Assembly: GCA_020444325.1 (NCBI GenBank)
Contig: JAHLLD010000006.1
Span: 124,001 to 188,000, forward strand
Source: a bacterium
GTDB lineage: Bacteria > Bacteroidota > Ignavibacteria > SZUA-365
Direction: 5' to 3'
Length of the DNA: 64,000 nt
In this document: positions 2-14,685 of the stretch, piece after piece
Position numbering within the stretch: the first letter of the stretch is position 1
Layout: each line of letters begins with the position of its first letter
Position numbers and translations under genes: made by a program
Notes under the pieces: generated by a model
Databases searched by the model: none
Told to the model about the DNA's origin: nothing
The model's input: the letters and a program-made list of their open reading frames with translations, nothing else

Positions 2-721
2 GAAATCACCTGGGTTACCGGTGTCCTCCTCTTCTACCTCTCCCTCGCATTCGGCTTCAGTGGTTATCTGCTGCCCTGGAATGAGCTGGCATACTTTGCG
101 ACGAAGGTGGGAACGGACATCGCGGGGAGTGTGCCGTTCGTCGGCGGACCCATCATGGAACTGCTGCGGGGCGGCGAACAGGTGTCAGGCGCCACGCTCT
201 CGCGCTTCTTCGGCTTTCACGTCGCACTTTTCCCGGCAATCTTTACCGTTCTGCTCGCCATTCACTTGCTCATGGTGCAGCGACAGGGCATGAGCTCTCC
301 GATTGGGGAAGAAAAAAATCCCAAGGCCCGCAGCATCCCGTTTTTCCCCAACTTCTTCCTTCGTGATGTACTGCTCTGGCTCATCGTCCTCAACATCCTC
401 GCCATTCTCGCCGTGTTCTTCCCCTGGGAACTGGGCGTCAAAGCGGATCCCTTCGCGGCCGCCCCGGCGGGCATCGTCCCCGAATGGTATTTCCTGTTCA
501 TGTTTCAGGTGCTGAAGCTGCTTCCCGCACATGTGCTTTTCCTGGAAGGAGAAGTGTTTGGTGTGCTGCTGTTCGGTACGGCGATGACGCTGTGGATTTT
601 CATTCCTTTCTTCGACCGCCAATCGCAGAAGGGACAGCGAGGCCGCCTGTTCACGATCATCGGATTGGCCGTGATCATCTTCATCCTGTTTTTCACCATT
701 CTCGGATGGGTGATGCTATGA
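2..721 (+). CDS. Cytochrome b of a bc-type quinol:cytochrome c oxidoreductase (5' end outside window)
   Basis: This is the C-terminal ~239 residues of an integral-membrane cytochrome b, the quinol-oxidising and haem b-carrying subunit of a bc1/b6f-like complex. Visible hallmarks are GFSGYLLPW near the start, a haem-ligand pair in FHVALF...AIHLL with 14 residues between the two histidines (the b6-like spacing; mitochondrial-type cytochrome b has 13), and the Qo-site motif PEWYF. Several hydrophobic helices follow, the last ending in ILGWVML. The b6-like and subunit IV-like parts lie in one chain, so this is a long-form, unsplit cytochrome b. Its stop overlaps the next gene as ATGA, implying translational coupling with the multihaem cytochrome. 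The first haem-ligand helix and start codon are outside the window, so the gene is partial here. Confidence 0.93.
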
Positions 722-2235
722 GATACTTCCAGCAAAGACTCCTTCGTATCCTGCTCGCACTCTCCATCCCCATGGCGGCACTTGTCGTCCCGACGATGCT
801 GCCTGCGCAGCAGGACGAATGCTTCACCTGTCACCAGATGATGGACGGCGATGCCGCCACAGCTTTCGTTTCCGATGTCCACAGGTCCGCAGGACTCACC
901 TGCGCGTCATGTCACGGCGGCGATGCCACAACCGATGACATGGAAGAGGGGATGAGCAAGGCAAGGGGCTTTATCGGCGTCCCCACCGGGGAAAGCATCT
1001 CCGCCCTCTGTGGGAAATGCCACGATGATGCGGAAACCATGGAACGCTACGGGTATGAGGGTCCGACGGGACAGCTGACGTCGCTTCGCGGGAGTGCACA
1101 CAGTCAGCAGGCGGGCACGACAGTCACGCTGCTGCTGCAGTGCACCGACTGCCATGGCGCGCACGGCATCCGTCATCCCGAAGATGCCGCTTCCCCCGTC
1201 TCTGCGTTGCGCGTTACCTCGCTCTGTGCCTCCTGTCATGCGGATCCCTCCTACATGCGCCGCTACAATCCTTCCCTGCCGACGGATCAGCTCGCCAAAT
1301 ACCGTACAAGCGTCCATGGCGAGCAGAACCTGCAGGGAAATACCAGGACGGCGACATGCAACGATTGCCATAGTGCACACGACATTCGTCCCGCGGAGGA
1401 AAGTACATCCAGCACGAACGCCTTGAACCTCCCGCAGACCTGCGGGCGATGTCATGCCAGTGCTGAGTACATGCGGGGTACGGGACTGCCGACGACACAG
1501 GTCGCGGAATTCCGCAGCAGTGTGCACGGCAAGGCATTGCTCGAGAAACGGGATATGAGTGCGCCTTCATGTAATGACTGTCACGGAAACCATGGCGCCG
1601 CGCCACCGAGCGTGCAGTCGATTTCCAACGTCTGCGGGACATGTCACGCGATGAACGCCGAGCTGTTCCGCGAAAGTCGGCACAACACCGAGTTTGCGCG
1701 GCTGGACAAACCGGAATGCGAAACCTGTCATGGCAATCACGCTGTGCAGCCGGCAACCGAAAAGCTGCTTGCACTCGATGCCGGCTCTCCGTGTGCATCC
1801 TGCCACGGAAAAGACCGCGCGCCCGAAGGATACCGCGCAGCGAAGCGTATGCGTTTGCTGCTCGACAGCCTGATGCTGACCATGCATGAAGCGGAAGTGC
1901 AGCTGGATGCCGCCGAACAGAAGGGGATGGAAATTGACGACATCCGTTTCGCACTGAGAGACGCGCGGCAGGCACGCCTGCAATCCCGCACTGCCATACA
2001 CGCCTTTTCACTCCCGAAGTTCGAGGAGGTCGTCGATCCCGGACTGCGTATCGCGCGCCAGGCACTGAAGGACGCCAGCGCCGCGAACGAGGATTACTAT
2101 TACCGGCGGTACGGACTCGCCGTCGTGACACTCATCATCACACTGACCATCATTTTTCTCGCGCTCTACATTCGCCGCATTGAACAACGGCAGAAAGCGG
2201 AGCATCATGCATCGGGTGAGCCCACGTCCACCTGA
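718..2235 (+). CDS. Membrane-anchored multihaem cytochrome c (11 CXXCH motifs)
   Basis: The protein has 505 residues: an N-terminal signal sequence ([16 protein letters not shown], cleavage near LPAQQ), then eleven CXXCH haem c sites between about residues 35 and 370 (CFTCH, CASCH, CGKCH, CTDCH, CASCH, CNDCH, CGRCH, CNDCH, CGTCH, CETCH, CASCH). A helical stretch and a C-terminal transmembrane segment ([20 protein letters not shown]) with a basic cytoplasmic tail follow. Recurrent 'R.SVHG...CNDCH..H' units resemble cytochrome c554/NrfB-type repeats. The start at 718 is chosen because it forms an ATGA overlap with cytochrome b and leaves a clean signal peptide; the same frame is open further upstream. 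The role is inferred to be electron acceptance from the bc-type complex on the periplasmic side. No nitrite-reductase-specific CXXCK site is seen. Confidence 0.93.
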
Positions 2236-5435: not shown

Positions 5436-5987
5436 ATGAAACATCTGACGCTGCTGTTCGTTGCAGTCACACTGCTTGCCACTGCCTGCTCCAATCCTGA
5501 CAACGACGCTGCCGCCGGTGACAGCACCGACGCTGTTCAGGCCGCAGGCGTGAGCGAATTTCCCATGATGACGAAGGATGCGTACGCCCCCTGGGCGAAA
5601 ATGCAGAGCGAGGCATACAGCTCCGTGCATCCTGCGGATGCGCCACGTGCCGCCGATATCGACATCCCCCCCTTCCCTGAATCATTCATTATTTCAAGCG
5701 GCACCGTAGGCGAGGACAATGCGAAGATGCGCTTCGTCGTTCTCATCTGCACCGATGCTCCTGAAGCTGTGCAGCAGTTCTACCTGCGTGAGCTGGTAGA
5801 CGGACGCGGATGGAATTATGCGGATCAGTACAGTGTCTTCCAGCCCGGTACCGGAAATGATTTTATCGTCAAGAACACACCCTTCGTTTCCATCACTTCC
5901 CTGAATCCGCACGCCGAGGAAATGCGCTTCGTGGACAAAGCTTTTGCGAAAAACTTTATCACACGCATACAGGTGACGTATAAGTAG
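5436..5987 (+). CDS. Hypothetical lipoprotein
   Basis: A 183-residue protein with a lipoprotein signal peptide (MKHLTLLFVAVTLLATAC, lipobox LATAC with Cys18), an acidic, low-complexity linker (NPDNDAAAGDSTD), then a compact alpha/beta domain with no motif I recognise (RFVVLICTDAPEAVQQFYLRELV, then SVFQPGTGNDFIVKNTPFVSIT). 'Tethered domain with an EAVQQFYxREL helix' recalls proteins that test stepwise 'p-value-like' polypeptide segments, but I assign no family. It is expected at the outer or inner membrane facing the periplasm. It is monocistronic. Confidence 0.8.
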   Translation: MKHLTLLFVAVTLLATACSNPDNDAAAGDSTDAVQAAGVSEFPMMTKDAYAPWAKMQSEAYSSVHPADAPRAADIDIPPFPESFIISSGTVGEDNAKMRFVVLICTDAPEAVQQFYLRELVDGRGWNYADQYSVFQPGTGNDFIVKNTPFVSITSLNPHAEEMRFVDKAFAKNFITRIQVTYK

Positions 5988-6027: not shown

Positions 6028-6056
6028 TTGACAACCTCAGATGATATTCGTATGCT
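6028..6056 (+). promoter_or_regulatory. Promoter of the first paralogous small-protein gene
   Basis: TTGACA at 6028-6033, 17-base spacer, TATGCT at 6051-6056. The 15-base block TGATATTCGTATGCT spanning the -10 is repeated exactly in front of the next paralogue (6791-6805), and both leaders end in AGAGGAGG ribosome-binding sites. This argues for duplication of the whole promoter-gene unit. Confidence 0.7.
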
Positions 6057-6103
6057 GATGTGTCTTTCCACACCATATACTATTGACCAGAGGAGGTGCC
6101 GGT

Positions 6104-6703
6104 ATGGCCAGCAAGGAAGTACTCCGTACAGATCCCATCCCCGGAGAATGGTTCGAAATCGCTTTTCGAGACGGATCGAAGTACAAAATCCAGGTTGCGT
6201 TTGAGGATGTGGAGGAAATCAGCGAAGGTTCTTTTGTGTTCGAACTGCTCGTGCTCAATACGACGGATTTCCTCCGCGCAGCGATCAAATCCAATCCCAA
6301 CGGTGCATTTCCGGATGACTATTACGGACAGGTCAATTCAGGCAGCTTCTGCGCACATGTCAATGAATTTCCCGAAACCGGAATATCGAATATCGCGTAC
6401 GATGACTTTTCAACGAGACTGTGTTCAGAAGAAATTCCGATTCACAGCGATTGGCACTGGGTCAACGACATCGGGGATGACAATTTCCACGTCATCCTTC
6501 TCGAATTCAGCAAGGCCGTCTCGGGAACCGGTGCATGTACAGGCCTGAAACCGGAGGCTGCTGGTGATGACCCGACAGTGACCGCCGGTCCTGTGGACTC
6601 AGTATCAAAATCCGTTTTCTACCCCATTCCAGAGGACGGAAGCGACGACGACCGAAAGAAGCTGCGCAAGAAGAAAGTTGTGGTCATCTGGAAAATGGCC
6701 TGA
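6104..6703 (+). CDS. Hypothetical cytosolic protein, paralogue 1
   Basis: A 199-residue protein without signal peptide or membrane segment, rich in acidic residues until a basic tail (DDDRKKLRKKKVVVIWKMA). The start at 6104 is set by a strong AGAGGAGGT site 6-7 bases upstream; an ATG-like start further upstream would skip it. It shares gene organisation, promoter block and C-terminal pattern (KKLxxKKVxVxW) with the gene at 6853, so the two are paralogues. The N-terminal half has beta-rich segments (WFEIAFRDGSKYKIQVAF). No known family is recognised; the tail may bind nucleic acid or a partner, which is only a guess. Confidence 0.75.
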   Translation: MASKEVLRTDPIPGEWFEIAFRDGSKYKIQVAFEDVEEISEGSFVFELLVLNTTDFLRAAIKSNPNGAFPDDYYGQVNSGSFCAHVNEFPETGISNIAYDDFSTRLCSEEIPIHSDWHWVNDIGDDNFHVILLEFSKAVSGTGACTGLKPEAAGDDPTVTAGPVDSVSKSVFYPIPEDGSDDDRKKLRKKKVVVIWKMA

Positions 6704-6731
6704 ATCTACTTCGGGACTATGAGCGTCCTGC

Positions 6732-6768
6732 ACCCGGTGATATCCCCCGCATATCACCGGGTTTTCTT
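6732..6768 (+). terminator. Rho-independent terminator of paralogue 1
   Basis: A perfect 12-bp stem (ACCCGGTGATAT at 6732-6743 with ATATCACCGGGT at 6751-6762), a 7-base loop and a following TTTTCTTT run. Confidence 0.9.
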
Positions 6769-6776
6769 TACTCAGG

Positions 6777-6805
6777 TTGCTTATAAATCCTGATATTCGT
6801 ATGCT
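6777..6805 (+). promoter_or_regulatory. Promoter of the second paralogous small-protein gene
   Basis: TTGCTT at 6777-6782, 17-base spacer, TATGCT at 6800-6805. It matches the promoter of the gene at 6104 in spacing, -10 sequence and the surrounding TGATATTCGTATGCT block, but its -35 is weaker. Confidence 0.65.
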
Positions 6806-6852
6806 CTGATGTTATTTCCATCCCAGACATCTTACTACAGAGGAGGCGTACC

Positions 6853-7389
6853 ATGGCGTATCAGCTCGACCAATACTACGATTTCACATTCGGTAGTCTC
6901 GGAGCACAGAGAATCAAGGTCACGCTGTGTGACAGTTCCAAAGCCGATGCTGACCATTTCGTGTTTGCGCAGGAGCACACAAAGTCGGCGACGAAGAGTT
7001 TCAAAGCACGTATACATGGATCAGGCGCGGATGCAGACTATTCCCTTGTAAACGATGGGAAGTGCTGCTTCACGCCTCCACCCTGCACCGCGACGACGAC
7101 CCCGGACGGCGAAATCATCTCTGCCCCCATTGAGATCTTAGCAGATGATCAGTGGGTATTCGTGGAAGTACCGCCTGGCGACGGCGGCGACGAGACCAAG
7201 GTGACACTGCATTTGTATTTCAGGATGGCAAATGAGCCGATTGACCCCTGCGATCCGGATGCGGGCACCCCTCCAGACGAAACCGGGGATGGACCCGCAG
7301 TGTTCGTCACCAGCATACCGATTGGAGAAGACAAGAAATTGAAACAGAAGAAGGTCAAGGTTCTCTGGCCGGCGGATACTGCCAAGTAA
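6853..7389 (+). CDS. Hypothetical cytosolic protein, paralogue 2
   Basis: A 178-residue acidic protein with no signal peptide, preceded by AGAGGAGG. It starts MAYQLDQYYDFTFG, contains a Cys/Pro-rich centre (KCCFTPPPC) and a second cluster (PIDPCDPDAGTPP), and ends with the basic pattern KKLKQKKVKVLW shared with the gene at 6104. Both open with a beta-rich segment and close with acidic-then-basic sequence, so I treat them as a duplicated pair of unknown function. Its own promoter lies at 6777-6805, after the terminator of the first copy, so the copies are transcribed separately. It converges on the kinase gene at 7456. Confidence 0.75.
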   Translation: MAYQLDQYYDFTFGSLGAQRIKVTLCDSSKADADHFVFAQEHTKSATKSFKARIHGSGADADYSLVNDGKCCFTPPPCTATTTPDGEIISAPIEILADDQWVFVEVPPGDGGDETKVTLHLYFRMANEPIDPCDPDAGTPPDETGDGPAVFVTSIPIGEDKKLKQKKVKVLWPADTAK

Positions 7390-7455: not shown

Positions 7456-10400
7456 CTACGTCAGAGGCAGCTGGATACAGAATTCCGTATAAGCACCCGG
7501 CTCCGTTCGTACGGTGATTTCACCGCGATGGAGCTGGGTTATTATTTCATGGCTCATGGAAAGTCCGAGACCAGCGTTCCGACTGCTTTCCTTTGTGGTA
7601 AAGAACGGTTCGAATATGCGATCAAGGACGACGGGATCCACTCCATGGCCATTGTCACGAACATATACCCGCACGGCCCCGTCACTGCGTTCGCTGCGAA
7701 TGTGAACCGCAGGCTTGAATTCCTCACCGTCTTCGGCGGCTCGAAGGATGGCGGCTTCCCAGGCATTGTTGCAGATGTTGACAATAACGCGGCTGAATTC
7801 CTGTGGCACGACCGCCACCTCCCCGACAGTTTCGTCGTAGCTGGTCTGCAGATCCAGCTTGAACTGTGGAAAGAGCAGGCACATGCCATGGTATGAGAGG
7901 AGTACGAATTCGTCGAGCAGGCTGTTGAGCATGATGGGTTCACGCGAGCTGCGGGACGAACGGCTGTGCATGATCATGGCATTGACGATGGATGTTGCTC
8001 GTTGTCCGTGCTGCCTGATGTGTTCGCAGTTCGCCTTGATCATCTCGATATGTTTGAGCATGGACTTTTTCCTCGCTCCCTCGACATGCTGCAACTCCTG
8101 CTCGAGTTCATGCAGAAGCTCGCAGGAAAGTTCCGAGAAGTTGTTGACGAAATTCAGGGGATTCTGAATTTCGTGGGCAATGCCCGCCGTCAACTCACCG
8201 AGCGCGGCGATCTTCTTCTGAGCGACCAGCTGCTCCTGCGTCGAAATGAGCTGATGATTCGCACTGTCGAGTTCACGATTCTTCATTTCCAGCTCTTCCA
8301 GAGCGTTCGCCTTGGCCACCGCCGAAGAGGCATGCTCCTTGAGCCGCAGGAGACGTTGCAGATCGTCTTCGCTGAAGCTCTGCGTGTCGCGGGACCCGAG
8401 AACGAGGAACCCTTCAATGGTTTTCTCCCGCTGCACCGACATCGCCATGAAGCGCACGGCGCGAAGGGCACTATCGCGACTGCGTTCTGCGATCACCTCT
8501 CCCAGTCCGCTAAGCAGATACACCCCTTCCTGCATGCGCTGCATGCCGACGTCCGCGCCGCCGAGAATTTCTCGCAGCACCATCTTCAGTCCCTGTACCT
8601 GGGAAGTATGTTTCCCTGTCGCGTGAATCACTTTAAAGACTTCGCTTTCGTGGGTACGTCGGACGAACATTGCGATATCCGCTTTTGGAAAGAACTGCAG
8701 CGACTGTACGAGCAGCGCTTCGAGTACACTGCCCAGTCGGGTTTCCCGATTCACGGTACGCACGATAGCGTCTACTCTTTCGAGTTCTTCAGCCTGCAGG
8801 CGGATTTCCTCCGACTGTTTCGCTATCTCTTTCGTGCGCTCCTGCACCGTCTGCTCAAGTTCCTTGCTGCGAATGTGCAGGACCCGGCCCTTATACCAGA
8901 GTCGCGCGATCCAAAGCAGGAACAGAAAGCCGGCGGCGAAGAGCAGGTAGGCCCACCAGGTTCGATACCAGGGTGGGAGGACAACGAAGCGGTACATCAC
9001 CGTTGGGCTCTCTTCTCCGCCAGGACGTTCAGCCATAACTTCAAATACATATTCGCCCACTGGCAGATGGGTGTATACCCGCCGGTTATTACTGCTCCAA
9101 TCTGACCAGGCCGAATCATATCCGCGTAGGCGCCAGTTATAGAGCACATTGTTCACGCCGTAGTAATTCGATGCAAATCTGATGCTGATTGATGGGTCGT
9201 CGTTCGGCAGCTCAACCACTTGCGTCGTGTCGATGGGGACATTCCCATGATACAGTATTCTGTCTACCGTGCTGATTTCACGAATAAAGGCCCGGAAGTT
9301 GCCCTGCTCCGACACTTCAACTTTCGGATCATATCGGTAGAGATGATTCAAGGAAGCAAACCAGGCGGTTCCATCCTTTTCAACCGAGATACTCGTCAGT
9401 GCGTCGGTGGGCAGCCCCGAAAATGGCGTACTCGAGAGATCATATTTCCCGCTCCCATCCGGAGTACACAGAAACATGTATCCATAATACCCGTCCTGCA
9501 GCCACAGACGGCCGTACTGGTCGGCTTTGAGATAAACGGGATTCCGTTTTAGTTTCCGCTTGAGGAGCTGCTTGAACATGCTGTCTTCGACAAGCCTGTT
9601 GCTCTTCCTGTCGTATCTGCAGAGTGAATCAGCGCTTACAATGCGCATGACACCCTGCACGGGGACACAGAGTAAACCTCCCTGCGGAACACCACGGGAA
9701 GAATCAAGAGTCTTGATATCCGGGGAGGAAAAGCCTTTCGTGAAATCCAGCAACTGCACCTCACGATGGATATGCGTGACCCAGACGATTCCTTCGGCAT
9801 CTCTTCCCATATCTCTGACTTTCATGTTGTCCCGCTGGTAGATAAAGGGATGTTCGGTCCATCCGCTTCCGTTCCATGAAAGAATGAAGAGGCCATTGTC
9901 ACTGGCAACAAGAACGGTGTTGCCGTCTGGAGTCAAAGAAAGAAACCGCTGTGCCTTCCTCGCGCTGATTTTACGCACGTTCTGTGCGGTAGTGAGAAGG
10001 AAGGTTCCGAAATTGACATCCGCAATGAGAAGTCCGTGCTTGGTAGCGAGCAGATCGAAGCAGGCCCCCTTTATCGCATTGACATTCTCGAATCGCGCTT
10101 CGGTATCGGACAGGGTTTTATGCGGGGACTCTGCCTTTATCAGGCGAAACACTCCAGCGAGAGTTGCGACGTACAGCGATCCCCGATAGCGTTCGGACAT
10201 CACGACCTCACCCGAGAGGCCTTGTTGACTGCGGAAGACCGTCAACGGTGCTGGCCATTCCACCACTGCGAGACCGTTATCCAGCATGATCCAGAGATAC
10301 TGCCCTCCGTCATGATACATAGTCTGAACTCGTTCGTCACCGAGTCCCTTGCTCCGGTCCAGATAGAATACAATGCTGCCAAGTGAGTCAATGACAATGG

Positions 10401-11247
10401 CACCGCTTTTCATTGTACGCAGAGCAATCTGTCCCTGCGGAAGATTGATGCCGGGCTCGAGATGCAGAGCTTCAGCGTCTTCCAGTTGAATATCCCACGC
10501 ATGCTTCCAATTCGTTCCATCATACAGATATGCAGAACCATTTGCCGTACCAACGAGCAATCCGCTTTGCCCCTGGGATCTGACAAAAACTACGGCGTTG
10601 TCGTCGCGTATGAGAAATTCAGAACCAGGCAGCTTTTCCAGCTTGTTCTCCTGCTGAACTACGAAAAGTCCCTCATCCTTTACGGGGACATACAGCCTGT
10701 CGCGCACAACCCAGGAATGCTGAAACCGTCCATCCGCAAACAGCGCCCCGACCTTTTTACCGTCCCAGAAAAACAGTGTTTCATCTGTCCGAAACCACAC
10801 GGTGCTTCCGACAACACAGGTTTCATGAACTCGTCCAAACTTGAGACTCAGTCCGTCCATCTTCGCATCCAGTATGACGAAATCCCGCCTTCCGAGCGAA
10901 TCCGTCACGAGATATCCGAACCAGCCGAACCCTCCAACGTACACCGTACCATCAGGAGCAATGTCCATGGAGAAAATGGGAAGTGAGTTCGGTGTTTCAA
11001 TCTGTCTCCAGTTGGCGCCGTCATACTCAAGCAGTCCGTTGGAACTCCCGAACAGCATGATTCCGTTGGCATCCTTCTGCGCACAGAAGTTCTGTGTACC
11101 AAATCCCATCTCATCGGAATCGTAGTATTTCAATAGTGGCGTACCCAGTTCCGCGTGTTGCTGTGCTGCCGCGGGAAATGGGCAGAGCACTGCGATCAAT
11201 AATAAGATCGCGGCACACATGTATCCTGTGACACTGGCACTACGCAT
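7456..11247 (-). CDS. Periplasmic beta-propeller sensor histidine kinase (Reg_prop/Y_Y_Y/GAF/HisKA/HATPase)
   Basis: A 1,263-residue sensor kinase. An N-terminal signal (ILLLIAVLCPFPAAAQQ) is followed by about 650 residues of beta-propeller repeats (Reg_prop-like, e.g. FGSSNGLLEYDGANW, DGTVYVGGFGWFGYL), a Y_Y_Y domain (NWRLRGYDSAWSDWS...LPVGEYVFEV), one transmembrane helix (TWWAYLLFAAGFLFLLWIARLW), a coiled coil, a GAF-like domain, then HisKA (ELTAGIAHEIQNPLNF, phosphorylated His) and HATPase (NICNNAWEA N-box, DNGHGV G1, FEPFFTTK). It resembles the hybrid systems that sense glycans or other extracellular ligands in Bacteroidota, but lacks a receiver and an AraC output domain, so it must signal to a separate regulator not visible beside it. 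It converges on the small paralogue at 6853. Confidence 0.93.
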   Translation of the reverse strand: MRSASVTGYMCAAILLLIAVLCPFPAAAQQHAELGTPLLKYYDSDEMGFGTQNFCAQKDANGIMLFGSSNGLLEYDGANWRQIETPNSLPIFSMDIAPDGTVYVGGFGWFGYLVTDSLGRRDFVILDAKMDGLSLKFGRVHETCVVGSTVWFRTDETLFFWDGKKVGALFADGRFQHSWVVRDRLYVPVKDEGLFVVQQENKLEKLPGSEFLIRDDNAVVFVRSQGQSGLLVGTANGSAYLYDGTNWKHAWDIQLEDAEALHLEPGINLPQGQIALRTMKSGAIVIDSLGSIVFYLDRSKGLGDERVQTMYHDGGQYLWIMLDNGLAVVEWPAPLTVFRSQQGLSGEVVMSERYRGSLYVATLAGVFRLIKAESPHKTLSDTEARFENVNAIKGACFDLLATKHGLLIADVNFGTFLLTTAQNVRKISARKAQRFLSLTPDGNTVLVASDNGLFILSWNGSGWTEHPFIYQRDNMKVRDMGRDAEGIVWVTHIHREVQLLDFTKGFSSPDIKTLDSSRGVPQGGLLCVPVQGVMRIVSADSLCRYDRKSNRLVEDSMFKQLLKRKLKRNPVYLKADQYGRLWLQDGYYGYMFLCTPDGSGKYDLSSTPFSGLPTDALTSISVEKDGTAWFASLNHLYRYDPKVEVSEQGNFRAFIREISTVDRILYHGNVPIDTTQVVELPNDDPSISIRFASNYYGVNNVLYNWRLRGYDSAWSDWSSNNRRVYTHLPVGEYVFEVMAERPGGEESPTVMYRFVVLPPWYRTWWAYLLFAAGFLFLLWIARLWYKGRVLHIRSKELEQTVQERTKEIAKQSEEIRLQAEELERVDAIVRTVNRETRLGSVLEALLVQSLQFFPKADIAMFVRRTHESEVFKVIHATGKHTSQVQGLKMVLREILGGADVGMQRMQEGVYLLSGLGEVIAERSRDSALRAVRFMAMSVQREKTIEGFLVLGSRDTQSFSEDDLQRLLRLKEHASSAVAKANALEELEMKNRELDSANHQLISTQEQLVAQKKIAALGELTAGIAHEIQNPLNFVNNFSELSCELLHELEQELQHVEGARKKSMLKHIEMIKANCEHIRQHGQRATSIVNAMIMHSRSSRSSREPIMLNSLLDEFVLLSYHGMCLLFPQFKLDLQTSYDETVGEVAVVPQEFSRVIVNICNNAWEAAILRAAEDGEEFKPAVHIRSERSDGAVRVYVRDNGHGVDPVVLDRIFEPFFTTKESSRNAGLGLSMSHEIITQLHRGEITVRTEPGAYTEFCIQLPLT

Positions 11248-11424: not shown

Positions 11425-14400
11425 ATGCGTAACTATTACGGTATTGCCTCGCATTTCCTGTTCAGCATCTGCCTCCTGTTGTTGCCGCCGACACTGACGG
11501 CACAGCAGACGAACTCTGCGGAAGCAGGGAACGGCTCGGACAATACCCGCATTCTCACCAACGACTTCTATGACAACCTCGCTGCCAACAGGCTGCTGCA
11601 CTGGATCAGCAACAACGGCACGTCTTCGCACAATCCGATAACAGGTGGGGCTGGAACGATGTGGCCCGGGGAGAACGGTGCTTCGGTAATCTATCAGGAC
11701 GGTCTGGTATGGGGCGGCAAGATTGAGGGCTACGTGATGATAGGGGGCTCTACGTATCGCGGCGGTCTGCAGGCGGGAAATATCCTTCCCGACGGAACGA
11801 CGGATCCAGTCGATGCCAAGCATCGCATTTACGGGCTCTCACTGGTAAACCGCAGCGGTTTCATGGCGTTGGACACGTCATCGCAGAAGCGTATGCGACA
11901 GGATTTCAGGGAATGGCCTGCCACGCTTGGCGCACCGTATGTGGATGTGGATGGCGACGGCAGCTATACGCCGGATTTCGATTCCTGGCTCGACGATCAC
12001 GACGGCAGCGACCATCCGTATTTCGCGGGAGAGCAGATTCTCTGGTTCGTAAGCAATGATCTCGACGCGAGACGAACTGCGGATCTCTACGGTTCACCGC
12101 CAATCGGCCTGGAAATGCGCGTATACGCATGGGCTTCCGCCAGCGATCCCCTGCTCGACAATACGGTATTCGTAGAATACACGATTATCCATCGCGGCGC
12201 TTCCGATCTCACGGAATTTCACCTCGCCCGCTGGTCCGATCCTGATCTCGGAGCCGCCGATAACGACTATCTCGGACTCGACCTCGCACAGAACATGCAG
12301 TACGTGTTCAACGCTACGGGGAGTGATACTGCCTTCGCCGGTCCCCCACCCGCCTTCGGCTACATCTGGCTGCAGACTCCGCTCGAGGAGCAAAGCGGTG
12401 CGGTCGCGGACTACGGACTCGGGACGCGCAGCGGATACAGAAACGTACCTGTCAGTGCGTTCACCTACTATATCAATTCCGATCCCACATACCAGGATCC
12501 GGACCTGGGCGATCCGGCGGGAACCCTGCAGATGTTCAATAACCTCAATGGCGCTCTCTATGATTACGGACCGCAGGTGGACCCCACCAATGGGGAAGAA
12601 ACCAAAACGGCGCTGGACGGCGATCCGATTTTCGAAACCGGCTGGCGCGACGGCATCGTGCATGGTCCGGGCGACCGCCGCATGCTGGGCTCCTGCAGCG
12701 TCGATCGTTTCGCCATGGGGGACACGCAGAAAGTCGTCTTTGCGCTGCATATCGCGGATGGTGGCAATGCCATGCTCAGTGTTCGCCAGCTGCGCAATGA
12801 AGCGCAGCGCCTGCACGATCACTATCAATGGCAGCGCAGCCAGGGTGAGCCGCCCGAACTACATGCGTCGATCACCTGGCCCGATGCAGGAAGCTACGCC
12901 GTGCATGTCACTGCCTCATCCCTCCCCACCGGCAGCCTGACCGCGCTGTTGGAAGACGAAGCGGGAAATCTCATTTCCTCGGCAGCAATGCTGGATGATG
13001 GACAGCATGACGACGGCGGAGCAGGAGACGGTATGTTCGGAGCGGTTATCCCGGGCAGCCGCATTCCAACCGGCGGTACGGTGTCCGTCATGAACGTCGT
13101 GGGCGGAGACAGCGCCCTGTGGTTCGTCGAAAACGATCTGCCACTCGCCGGGGATATTGATGTATCCATCAATGCCGTGATGTCGGATCACCTGAACTAC
13201 GACGGGAAAATCAATCCCGGGGAGAACGTCCGCCTCCAGTTGCATTTCGAAAACAGCACCATTGACAGTATCCCCATGTGGTACCTCTTCCCGGTCAACG
13301 AAGCGAACGCTATCGTGCCGCAGCATGTGTATCATTTCCGTCTCCCTGTCGCCGGAGGCTCCGCAGCAAACACGGTGTATGACCCCACGACCACGACGGG
13401 ATATCTCACCGTGCAGGTGCCCGAAAACGCTTCACCCGGCATTTTCGAATGTCCCATCGTCGTGCTGGTCGAGGGACGAGGCATGTGGCGCGATACGCTG
13501 CGCATGCTGGTGGAGCCTTTCGGCACGCCGCCGGCGGTGGGACGGCTGGAGCATCTCACGGGAAGCGCCACAGGCACTCTCGATTACGTGGTGGCCGACT
13601 GGACCGCATTCAAACCGCATTTCTACTACATTCAGGCCGAAGGCGAATATGATGAGGAGGTGACCTTCTCCATCCGTGACGAATCGCTCAGGAAGGAAGT
13701 TGCCAGTGGTCTCCCGTTCCCCGATGCGCTGGGACACGATGCGCAGATCGTCGATGGATGGAAGCTGCTTTCCGGCTCAACACACCCGGGTCCCGCCTAT
13801 GATGGTGATGGAAATCTCACTGCCAACTACGATGGACAGGCACGGGCGCAATGGAGTCATCCCGAGCGCACCTGGCTGGAGTTCTATGCAGACTACCTGA
13901 TCACCGGTGAAGTGTTTTTCGGAAGTTCACTCCTGATCTATGATATCTATCCCGTTCGTCTCGTCTTCGATGCAACGCAGACACAGAAAGCCTACCGCTG
14001 GCTTCGCGGCGGCGATCCCTCCTACGGGTACGTAAGTTACGACGACATTGCCGTGCGCGCGTATGACATGTCCGACAGTCTGAATCCCCGCCAGATCACA
14101 CTGGGTTACATCGAGAATAAAGGTGGTGCGCGTGAAGATGGTCAGTGGAATCCGCAGGAGATCATGGACAGGGAATATTTATTCGTATTCGATGATGACT
14201 ATACAACCACTCCGCAGACGAAATACCAGGGCGTCATTATCTCTGATGCCATACAGCTCCCCTGCGTTTTTGCGATGTGGGCCTATCATCATCCGGGACT
14301 CCCGATGTACGAGAACGGAGATGCGATGACGATTATACCCACCATCCCCGTCAGCAAGCAGGACGCATACATTCTCGACATGTCCGCCGTAACCTCGGCA

Positions 14401-14685
14401 GAGGGCAATCCGCCAGTCACCGGATATTTCTCCCTCCATCAGAATTATCCCAATCCCGGCAGGGGACAAACCGTCATCAGCTTCGATGCGGGACGCAGTG
14501 GCTACGTGCGTCTCGAACTCTATGACCTGCTGGGACGAAAATGTCGGACGCTGCATGAAGGCTTTGTGAATCAGGGACGGCATACCATCCCGCTTTCGAC
14601 GGCAACTCTGCAGCCGGGAACGTATTTTTATCGTTTGACTGCCGGCGGCACACAGTTGCTGCGTCGTATGCAGATTCTGCATTAA
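11425..14685 (+). CDS. Large secreted protein with type IX sorting domain
   Basis: A 1,086-residue exported protein. The signal peptide is SHFLFSICLLLLPPTLTAQQ. The N-terminal part carries an acidic calcium-site-like stretch (VDVDGDGSYTPDFDSWLDDHDG, residues ~173-194), and the middle has beta-sandwich-like segments. The last ~85 residues are a type IX sorting domain (SLHQNYPNPGRGQTVISFDA...LYDLLGRKCRTL...PGTYFYRLTAGG). Export through the outer membrane by the type IX system and surface attachment or release are expected from family knowledge. No catalytic motif is recognised. It is divergent from the sensor kinase at 7456, which suggests, but does not prove, co-regulation. Confidence 0.88.
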   Translation: MRNYYGIASHFLFSICLLLLPPTLTAQQTNSAEAGNGSDNTRILTNDFYDNLAANRLLHWISNNGTSSHNPITGGAGTMWPGENGASVIYQDGLVWGGKIEGYVMIGGSTYRGGLQAGNILPDGTTDPVDAKHRIYGLSLVNRSGFMALDTSSQKRMRQDFREWPATLGAPYVDVDGDGSYTPDFDSWLDDHDGSDHPYFAGEQILWFVSNDLDARRTADLYGSPPIGLEMRVYAWASASDPLLDNTVFVEYTIIHRGASDLTEFHLARWSDPDLGAADNDYLGLDLAQNMQYVFNATGSDTAFAGPPPAFGYIWLQTPLEEQSGAVADYGLGTRSGYRNVPVSAFTYYINSDPTYQDPDLGDPAGTLQMFNNLNGALYDYGPQVDPTNGEETKTALDGDPIFETGWRDGIVHGPGDRRMLGSCSVDRFAMGDTQKVVFALHIADGGNAMLSVRQLRNEAQRLHDHYQWQRSQGEPPELHASITWPDAGSYAVHVTASSLPTGSLTALLEDEAGNLISSAAMLDDGQHDDGGAGDGMFGAVIPGSRIPTGGTVSVMNVVGGDSALWFVENDLPLAGDIDVSINAVMSDHLNYDGKINPGENVRLQLHFENSTIDSIPMWYLFPVNEANAIVPQHVYHFRLPVAGGSAANTVYDPTTTTGYLTVQVPENASPGIFECPIVVLVEGRGMWRDTLRMLVEPFGTPPAVGRLEHLTGSATGTLDYVVADWTAFKPHFYYIQAEGEYDEEVTFSIRDESLRKEVASGLPFPDALGHDAQIVDGWKLLSGSTHPGPAYDGDGNLTANYDGQARAQWSHPERTWLEFYADYLITGEVFFGSSLLIYDIYPVRLVFDATQTQKAYRWLRGGDPSYGYVSYDDIAVRAYDMSDSLNPRQITLGYIENKGGAREDGQWNPQEIMDREYLFVFDDDYTTTPQTKYQGVIISDAIQLPCVFAMWAYHHPGLPMYENGDAMTIIPTIPVSKQDAYILDMSAVTSAEGNPPVTGYFSLHQNYPNPGRGQTVISFDAGRSGYVRLELYDLLGRKCRTLHEGFVNQGRHTIPLSTATLQPGTYFYRLTAGGTQLLRRMQILH

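Follow-up and report, generated by a model that had tools for sequence, protein, structure and literature searches.

Two neighboring small genes in a bacterial genome of the Ignavibacteria lineage SZUA-365 (phylum Bacteroidota) raise the question of how two promoters so alike came to stand before two proteins so unlike, and what those proteins do. The window, meaning the whole stretch of 64,000 nucleotides that was analyzed, was initially annotated as holding a recently duplicated promoter–gene unit that encodes paralogous proteins of no known family, possibly a self/partner recognition or sensing pair. We find that the genes are an old tandem duplication in a lineage-restricted family of leaderless, acidic, all-β proteins. 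The family and a convergent membrane histidine kinase form a genetic module; this linkage is observed directly, and we infer from it how the two might work together.

Promoters and leaders of the two genes

Each copy is a self-contained unit of promoter, leader, strong ribosome site, and gene, and a terminator closes the first unit (Table 1). The span singled out in the initial annotation runs from the −35 box of copy 1 (6028) to the stop codon of copy 2 (7389), and the architecture described for it is present: 17-base spacers, a common 15-mer, and identical ribosome sites at both genes, with a strong 12-pair terminator between them. The hexamers of both units fall within the 16–18-base separation of a σ70-type promoter, the −35 of copy 2 (TTGCTT) being weaker than that of copy 1, and across 464 kb of this genome TTGAC-N17-TANNNT is favored over the other spacings (22 sites versus 3–8). 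The first ATG of copy 1 lies at 6104; the mechanical ORF begins at a TTG at 6083.

Table 1. Coordinates of the two units, the convergent kinase, and other features of the window
Feature	Position	Strand	Details
Cytochrome b-like ORF	107-721		Named by eye
Multihaem cytochrome-like ORF	484-2235		Many CxxCH; beside the cytochrome b-like ORF; named by eye
Lipoprotein-like gene	5436-5987		Identity of 57-66% across five genomes of the genus; Pfam gave no match
Copy 1 promoter	6028..6056	+	TTGACA, 17-base spacer, TATGCT; TGATATTCGTATGCT at 6042-6056
Copy 1 leader block	6063..6071	+	TCTTTCCAC; TCCA-type block
Copy 1 ribosome site	6089..6096	+	AGAGGAGG
Copy 1	6104..6703	+	Orphan-family protein of 199 aa, leaderless and acidic (pI 4.56)
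Intrinsic terminator after copy 1	6732..6770	+	12-pair stem 6732-6762, then T-rich tail TTTCTTTACT
Copy 2 promoter	6777..6805	+	TTGCTT, 17-base spacer, TATGCT; TGATATTCGTATGCT at 6791-6805
Copy 2 leader block	6813..6820	+	TATTTCCA
Copy 2 ribosome site	6839..6846	+	AGAGGAGG
Copy 2	6853..7389	+	178 aa; paralogue of copy 1
Sensor histidine kinase	7456..11247	-	1263 aa; hydrophobic N terminus, Reg_prop propeller, Y_Y_Y, HisKA (below cut-off), HATPase_c
Large secreted protein	11425-14685		Type IX sorting tail; multi-copy family in 12 of 12 searched genomes

Ten of the 12 copies of the family have their own promoter of this σ70 type. In all 10 aligned leaders TTG, TA...T, GGAGG, and the 17-base spacing (judged by eye) are invariant, and GATAT-like bases between the −35 and −10 are conserved almost as strongly as the −10 itself (10 leaders, 8 genomes). 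By eye, 8 of the 10 leaders carry a TCCA block 3′ of the −10, and 8 of the 10 carry AGAGGAGG exactly.

How specific is this leader to the two genes? The exact 15-mer TGATATTCGTATGCT occurs at only two sites in the 4.65-Mb genome, both in the window, and with two mismatches at 13 further sites. Six of these 13 sites (L003-L008) were rejected as promoters, appearing chance-like by eye with no clear −35 where one is due. The pattern TTG-N12-GATATTNGTATNNT, with at most two mismatches, has 25 genome sites versus 4 for a reversed control, and several of the 18 nonwindow sites inspected lie no more than about 110 bases upstream of an ORF. A sequence-only model of the full leader, whose rows include both window leaders, matches just the two window genes genome-wide (61.9 and 49.2 bits; next match 13.7 bits). 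Thus, other promoters share the −10 form but not the remainder of the leader. The initial annotation had named, as what would overturn it, a generic promoter placed before proteins of unrelated families; the −10 block is indeed partly generic, but the complete leader is restricted to these two genes and the proteins belong to one family, and we therefore reject a generic promoter as the whole explanation.

The leaders bear on one account of the small proteins in which they are an output of the kinase: acting through a separate response regulator, the kinase would switch the promoters, with the GATAT and TCCA bases as putative regulator sites. We regard this as possible, though on balance unlikely. 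It agrees with conservation of the leader, GATAT-like bases included, in all 10 promoter-bearing copies from eight genomes, with occurrence of the whole leader at these two genes only, and with a strong ribosome site coupled to ordinary codon usage, as in a gene made on demand. Scored against 15 ribosomal-region genes picked by eye, the copies rank at the 40th and 30th percentile among 299 ORFs, a sample of the total, and with codon usage this average we reject very high constitutive expression. The leader alignment contains no conserved RNA structure or hairpin hiding the ribosome site, and the six leaders folded, of 10, did no better than shuffles (z −0.94 to 1.35); a DNA site in the leader is therefore likelier. 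Promoter-like sites with a GATNTTCGTAT-type −10 elsewhere in the genome speak against such a regulator site, as the block may be core promoter.

An old duplication in a narrowly distributed family

Compared directly, the two window proteins give a weak match (26% over 191 columns, E 0.018). Because copy 1 (E 2.3e-23) and copy 2 (E 4.0e-6), each searched alone, both find the same protein of the sister genome G002, they are homologous, and profile searches unite them with 10 more copies in one family. Their paralogy is thereby borne out, and the similar ends noted at the outset are present as well, the C termini KKLRKKKVVVIW (copy 1) and KKLKQKKVKVLW (copy 2) both reading KKLxxKKVxVxW. They likewise belong to no known family: profile search of both against Pfam, NCBIfam, and PHROGs gave no match at E 10. 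Profile search with the 12 members returned only a subthreshold DUF4896 (E 0.07), a PDB sequence search gave no convincing solved-structure relative, and PADLOC anti-phage defense profiles matched no family over the 12 members at E 1. The AidA/PixA inclusion-body proteins, considered as candidate relatives, were set aside for want of a Pfam match, and a literature look turned up nothing to the point.

The 12 copies are spread over 8 of 12 searched genomes of this Bacteroidota taxonomic family at one to three per genome: two in the window genome (G000) and in G002, three in G003, and one each in G001, G004, G006, G009, and G011. No copy was found in G005, G007, or G008, and a match in G010 (E 0.06) lies inside a 500-aa ORF and was taken for chance. 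The family is confined to genera g1 and g3. Beyond the taxonomic family, none of 49 other genomes of the same search has a copy, and 395 genomes of the phylum gave three matches at E 0.01, none convincing besides the window genome itself; matches at E 0.004 and 0.006 sit within unrelated-looking ORFs of 557 and 891 aa. A genome scan placed relatives at three loci, in Bacteroidetes metagenome-assembled genomes.

The duplication itself is not recent, contrary to the initial annotation. In a maximum-likelihood tree, G000_1 joins G002_1 (99/99) and G000_2 joins G002_2 (80/84); because the copies pair by position across these sister species, the duplication predates their split. Five of the nine inner branches of this tree are not starred, and its deeper branching order is only tentative. 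Recent tandem duplicates would be closer to each other than to copies in sister species, and the two window copies, at 23% identity to each other, are not. A separate duplication (96/94) gave copies 2 and 3 of G003, where three copies stand behind one single promoter.

Divergence of the proteins far outpaces that of the leaders, as first proposed, with protein identity at 23–30% while the leader is held. In a comparison of G000 with G002, each of the two copies is 30% identical to its counterpart, against 66% for the flanking lipoprotein-like gene and 79% for the methyltransferase beyond it; across most pairs the small proteins are 12–36% identical. Alike promoters on unlike neighbors need not, then, signal recent duplication. 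Identical leader bases number 30 between the G002 copies, 15 between the G000 copies, and 14 across species, and this greater identity within a genome than across may reflect gene conversion or constraint.

Members are about 175–200 residues long, acidic (pI 4.05–5.46) with a basic tail, and F15, W106, and K173 are invariant in all 12. None of the 12 has a hydrophobic N terminus: the Kyte-Doolittle maximum is 0.12–1.51, whereas four exported control proteins score 2.30–3.23 and a single cytosolic one 0.64. Modeled from 12 rows, copy 2 of G003 is predicted to consist entirely of strands (pLDDT 88.2, pTM 0.84; residues ∼125–148 poor); an earlier model of copy 1 from eight rows was poor (pLDDT 50). 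Structural neighbors of the model are all weak. They include DUF2436 at Z 5.1, a protein with a putative carbohydrate-binding role at Z 4.4, the outer domain of a peptide transporter at Z 3.9, and CBM9 at Z 3.6, and below Z 8, as the structure tool warns, a match may reflect merely a common arrangement. The best of them are mostly adhesin or carbohydrate-binding domains, with no kinase regulator among them. Foldseek returned 0 of 659 PDB and 0 of 646 viral matches at E 0.001, where a weak or missing match is no proof of a new fold; a carbohydrate-binding β-sandwich of the CBM9 or DUF2436 type is a candidate fold (Z 3.6–5.1, no Foldseek match at E 0.001). Of the 12 members, 7 have cysteines at both alignment columns 100 and 184, and the other 5 have neither. 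Their co-occurrence hints at a disulfide and hence at an oxidizing place, and on the tree the pattern may amount to one or two changes only.

Linkage to a convergent histidine kinase

The initial annotation did not mention the neighboring kinase. All eight gene-bearing genomes have it, and in each the small gene closest to it points toward it, in convergent orientation. The stop-to-stop distance ranges from a 4-base overlap in G002 to 146 bases in G004 (28 in G011, 51 in G001). These 4 bases, at L018:7237-7240 of G002, are where the stop codon of the second small gene overlaps that of the kinase. Among the 12 genomes searched, a full-length kinase orthologue (E 7.9e-234 or better) is found in seven of the eight that carry the small gene; the remaining one, G002, shows a 67% identical kinase tail that is cut off by the end of the contig. 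None of the four genomes without the small gene has a full-length orthologue, the best matches in G005 and G008 covering the kinase half only and G007 and G010 having none at E 1e-30. A second propeller sensor, kin of the window kinase and interrupted by two internal stops, lies elsewhere in the window genome (G000:C4:146939-149296; L081).

Such a pattern, adjoining in eight of eight genomes and absent together in four of four, is that of an accessory protein encoded beside one kinase and inherited with it, and it is consistent with the sensing role suggested at the outset. Nevertheless, convergent neighbors share no promoter, so the linkage may be mere co-inheritance, and one gain plus one loss (in G010) could suffice for the presence pattern. 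The genes might then be neighbors by descent only: an orphan soluble β protein of unrelated function, ligand or sugar binding for example, at a rarely rearranged locus. The narrow range of the family (genera g1 and g3) accords with this explanation, as do the weak neighbors DUF2436, the putative carbohydrate-binding protein, and CBM9. A locus that is simply static is harder to reconcile with the outer neighbors, which differ between genomes whereas the pair itself is constant. On that side G000, G002, and G003 have a lipoprotein-like gene; G001 and G004 an 814–818-aa ORF; G006 a secreted-type ORF of about 1100 aa, which G011 also has, truncated where its contig stops; and G009 a 424-aa ORF. 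We rate descent alone as rather unlikely, somewhat below control of the promoters by the kinase.

The two halves of the kinase have diverged to different extents. Between most genomes the propeller is 24–32% identical, whereas the HisKA-HATPase half is 55–67% identical; for G004/G001 and for any two of G006, G009, and G011, which are closer pairs, the kinase half reaches 73–82%, and propeller identity is also higher in G004/G001 (40%) and G006/G009 (51%). In a weak test over 21 genome pairs, which are not independent, small-protein identity correlates neither with sensor identity (rho 0.26, p 0.25) nor with kinase-half identity (rho 0.15, p 0.53). Because it tracks neither half, close coevolution of protein and kinase is disfavored, a result that also suits neighbors linked only by descent.

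The same result weighs on the self- or kin-recognition role that had been proposed. The diversified small proteins would be ligands of an equally diversified propeller, and the low identities of both (propeller against kinase half, and small proteins at 12–36%), the variable copy number among genomes, and the covarying cysteine pair, with its hint of a location outside the cytosol, all point that way. The proteins have no signal peptide, however, and would require another export route or lysis; the small protein and kinase do not co-diverge; and rapid change of the sensor may be a common trait of kinases of this type. We consider recognition improbable. Even less probable, to our minds, is a specific form of it in which a leaderless protein made on demand is freed by dying kin and read by the fast-evolving propeller kinase of neighboring cells, a species-specific sensing of self or kin lysis; if true, species would multiply and diversify a signal protein under an unchanging promoter.

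We tentatively favor a role for the small proteins as soluble, dedicated partners of the convergent kinase, and place this only narrowly ahead of their being its output, the evidence agreeing with both. The output role would depend on a postulated response regulator: a domain search of the 1263-aa kinase found no receiver and no DNA-binding domain. The propeller half of the kinase would lie outside the inner membrane and the kinase half in the cytosol, where the soluble small protein would presumably remain. There it could bind the kinase half directly and set its activity, in whichever direction, and extra copies arising in some species would then be free to diverge. Accessory proteins, which are treated as a class of two-component partners in PMC8534201, are described there as binding the catalytic domain of kinases. 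The cysteine pair and the adhesin- or carbohydrate-type fold neighbors are hints that count against a cytosolic partner. If the link is functional, the locus would represent a two-component module with a soluble partner family undescribed in a literature search that was not aimed at the family's sequence. At about 5 kb in total, the module should lend itself readily to experiment.

Comparison with known systems

The hybrid two-component sensors (HTCS) of Bacteroidota have a propeller and Y_Y_Y domain and carry a receiver and a DNA-binding domain on the kinase polypeptide itself. The window kinase resembles them in its Reg_prop, Y_Y_Y, HisKA, and HATPase_c domains but has neither a receiver nor a DNA-binding domain in the same chain, and thus falls outside the HTCS definition. 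Among Y_Y_Y proteins, BT4663 is mentioned in PMC8534201.

For the small proteins, the best structural neighbor is the DUF2436 domain of Porphyromonas gingivalis (PDB 9isp; Z 5.1, 113 residues aligned, rmsd 4.2), at only 10% identity and with a Z that may equal a common β arrangement. The entry title places DUF2436 in virulence proteins, whereas the window protein is leaderless.

QseG, a lipoprotein, and LiaF and GraX, which are parts of other systems, offer a comparison in gene organization. The window family differs from all three in being leaderless, all-β, and tandemly copied, and any effect on the kinase is putative. What it shares with these two-component accessory proteins is that a nonkinase gene is likewise kept beside one sensor kinase.
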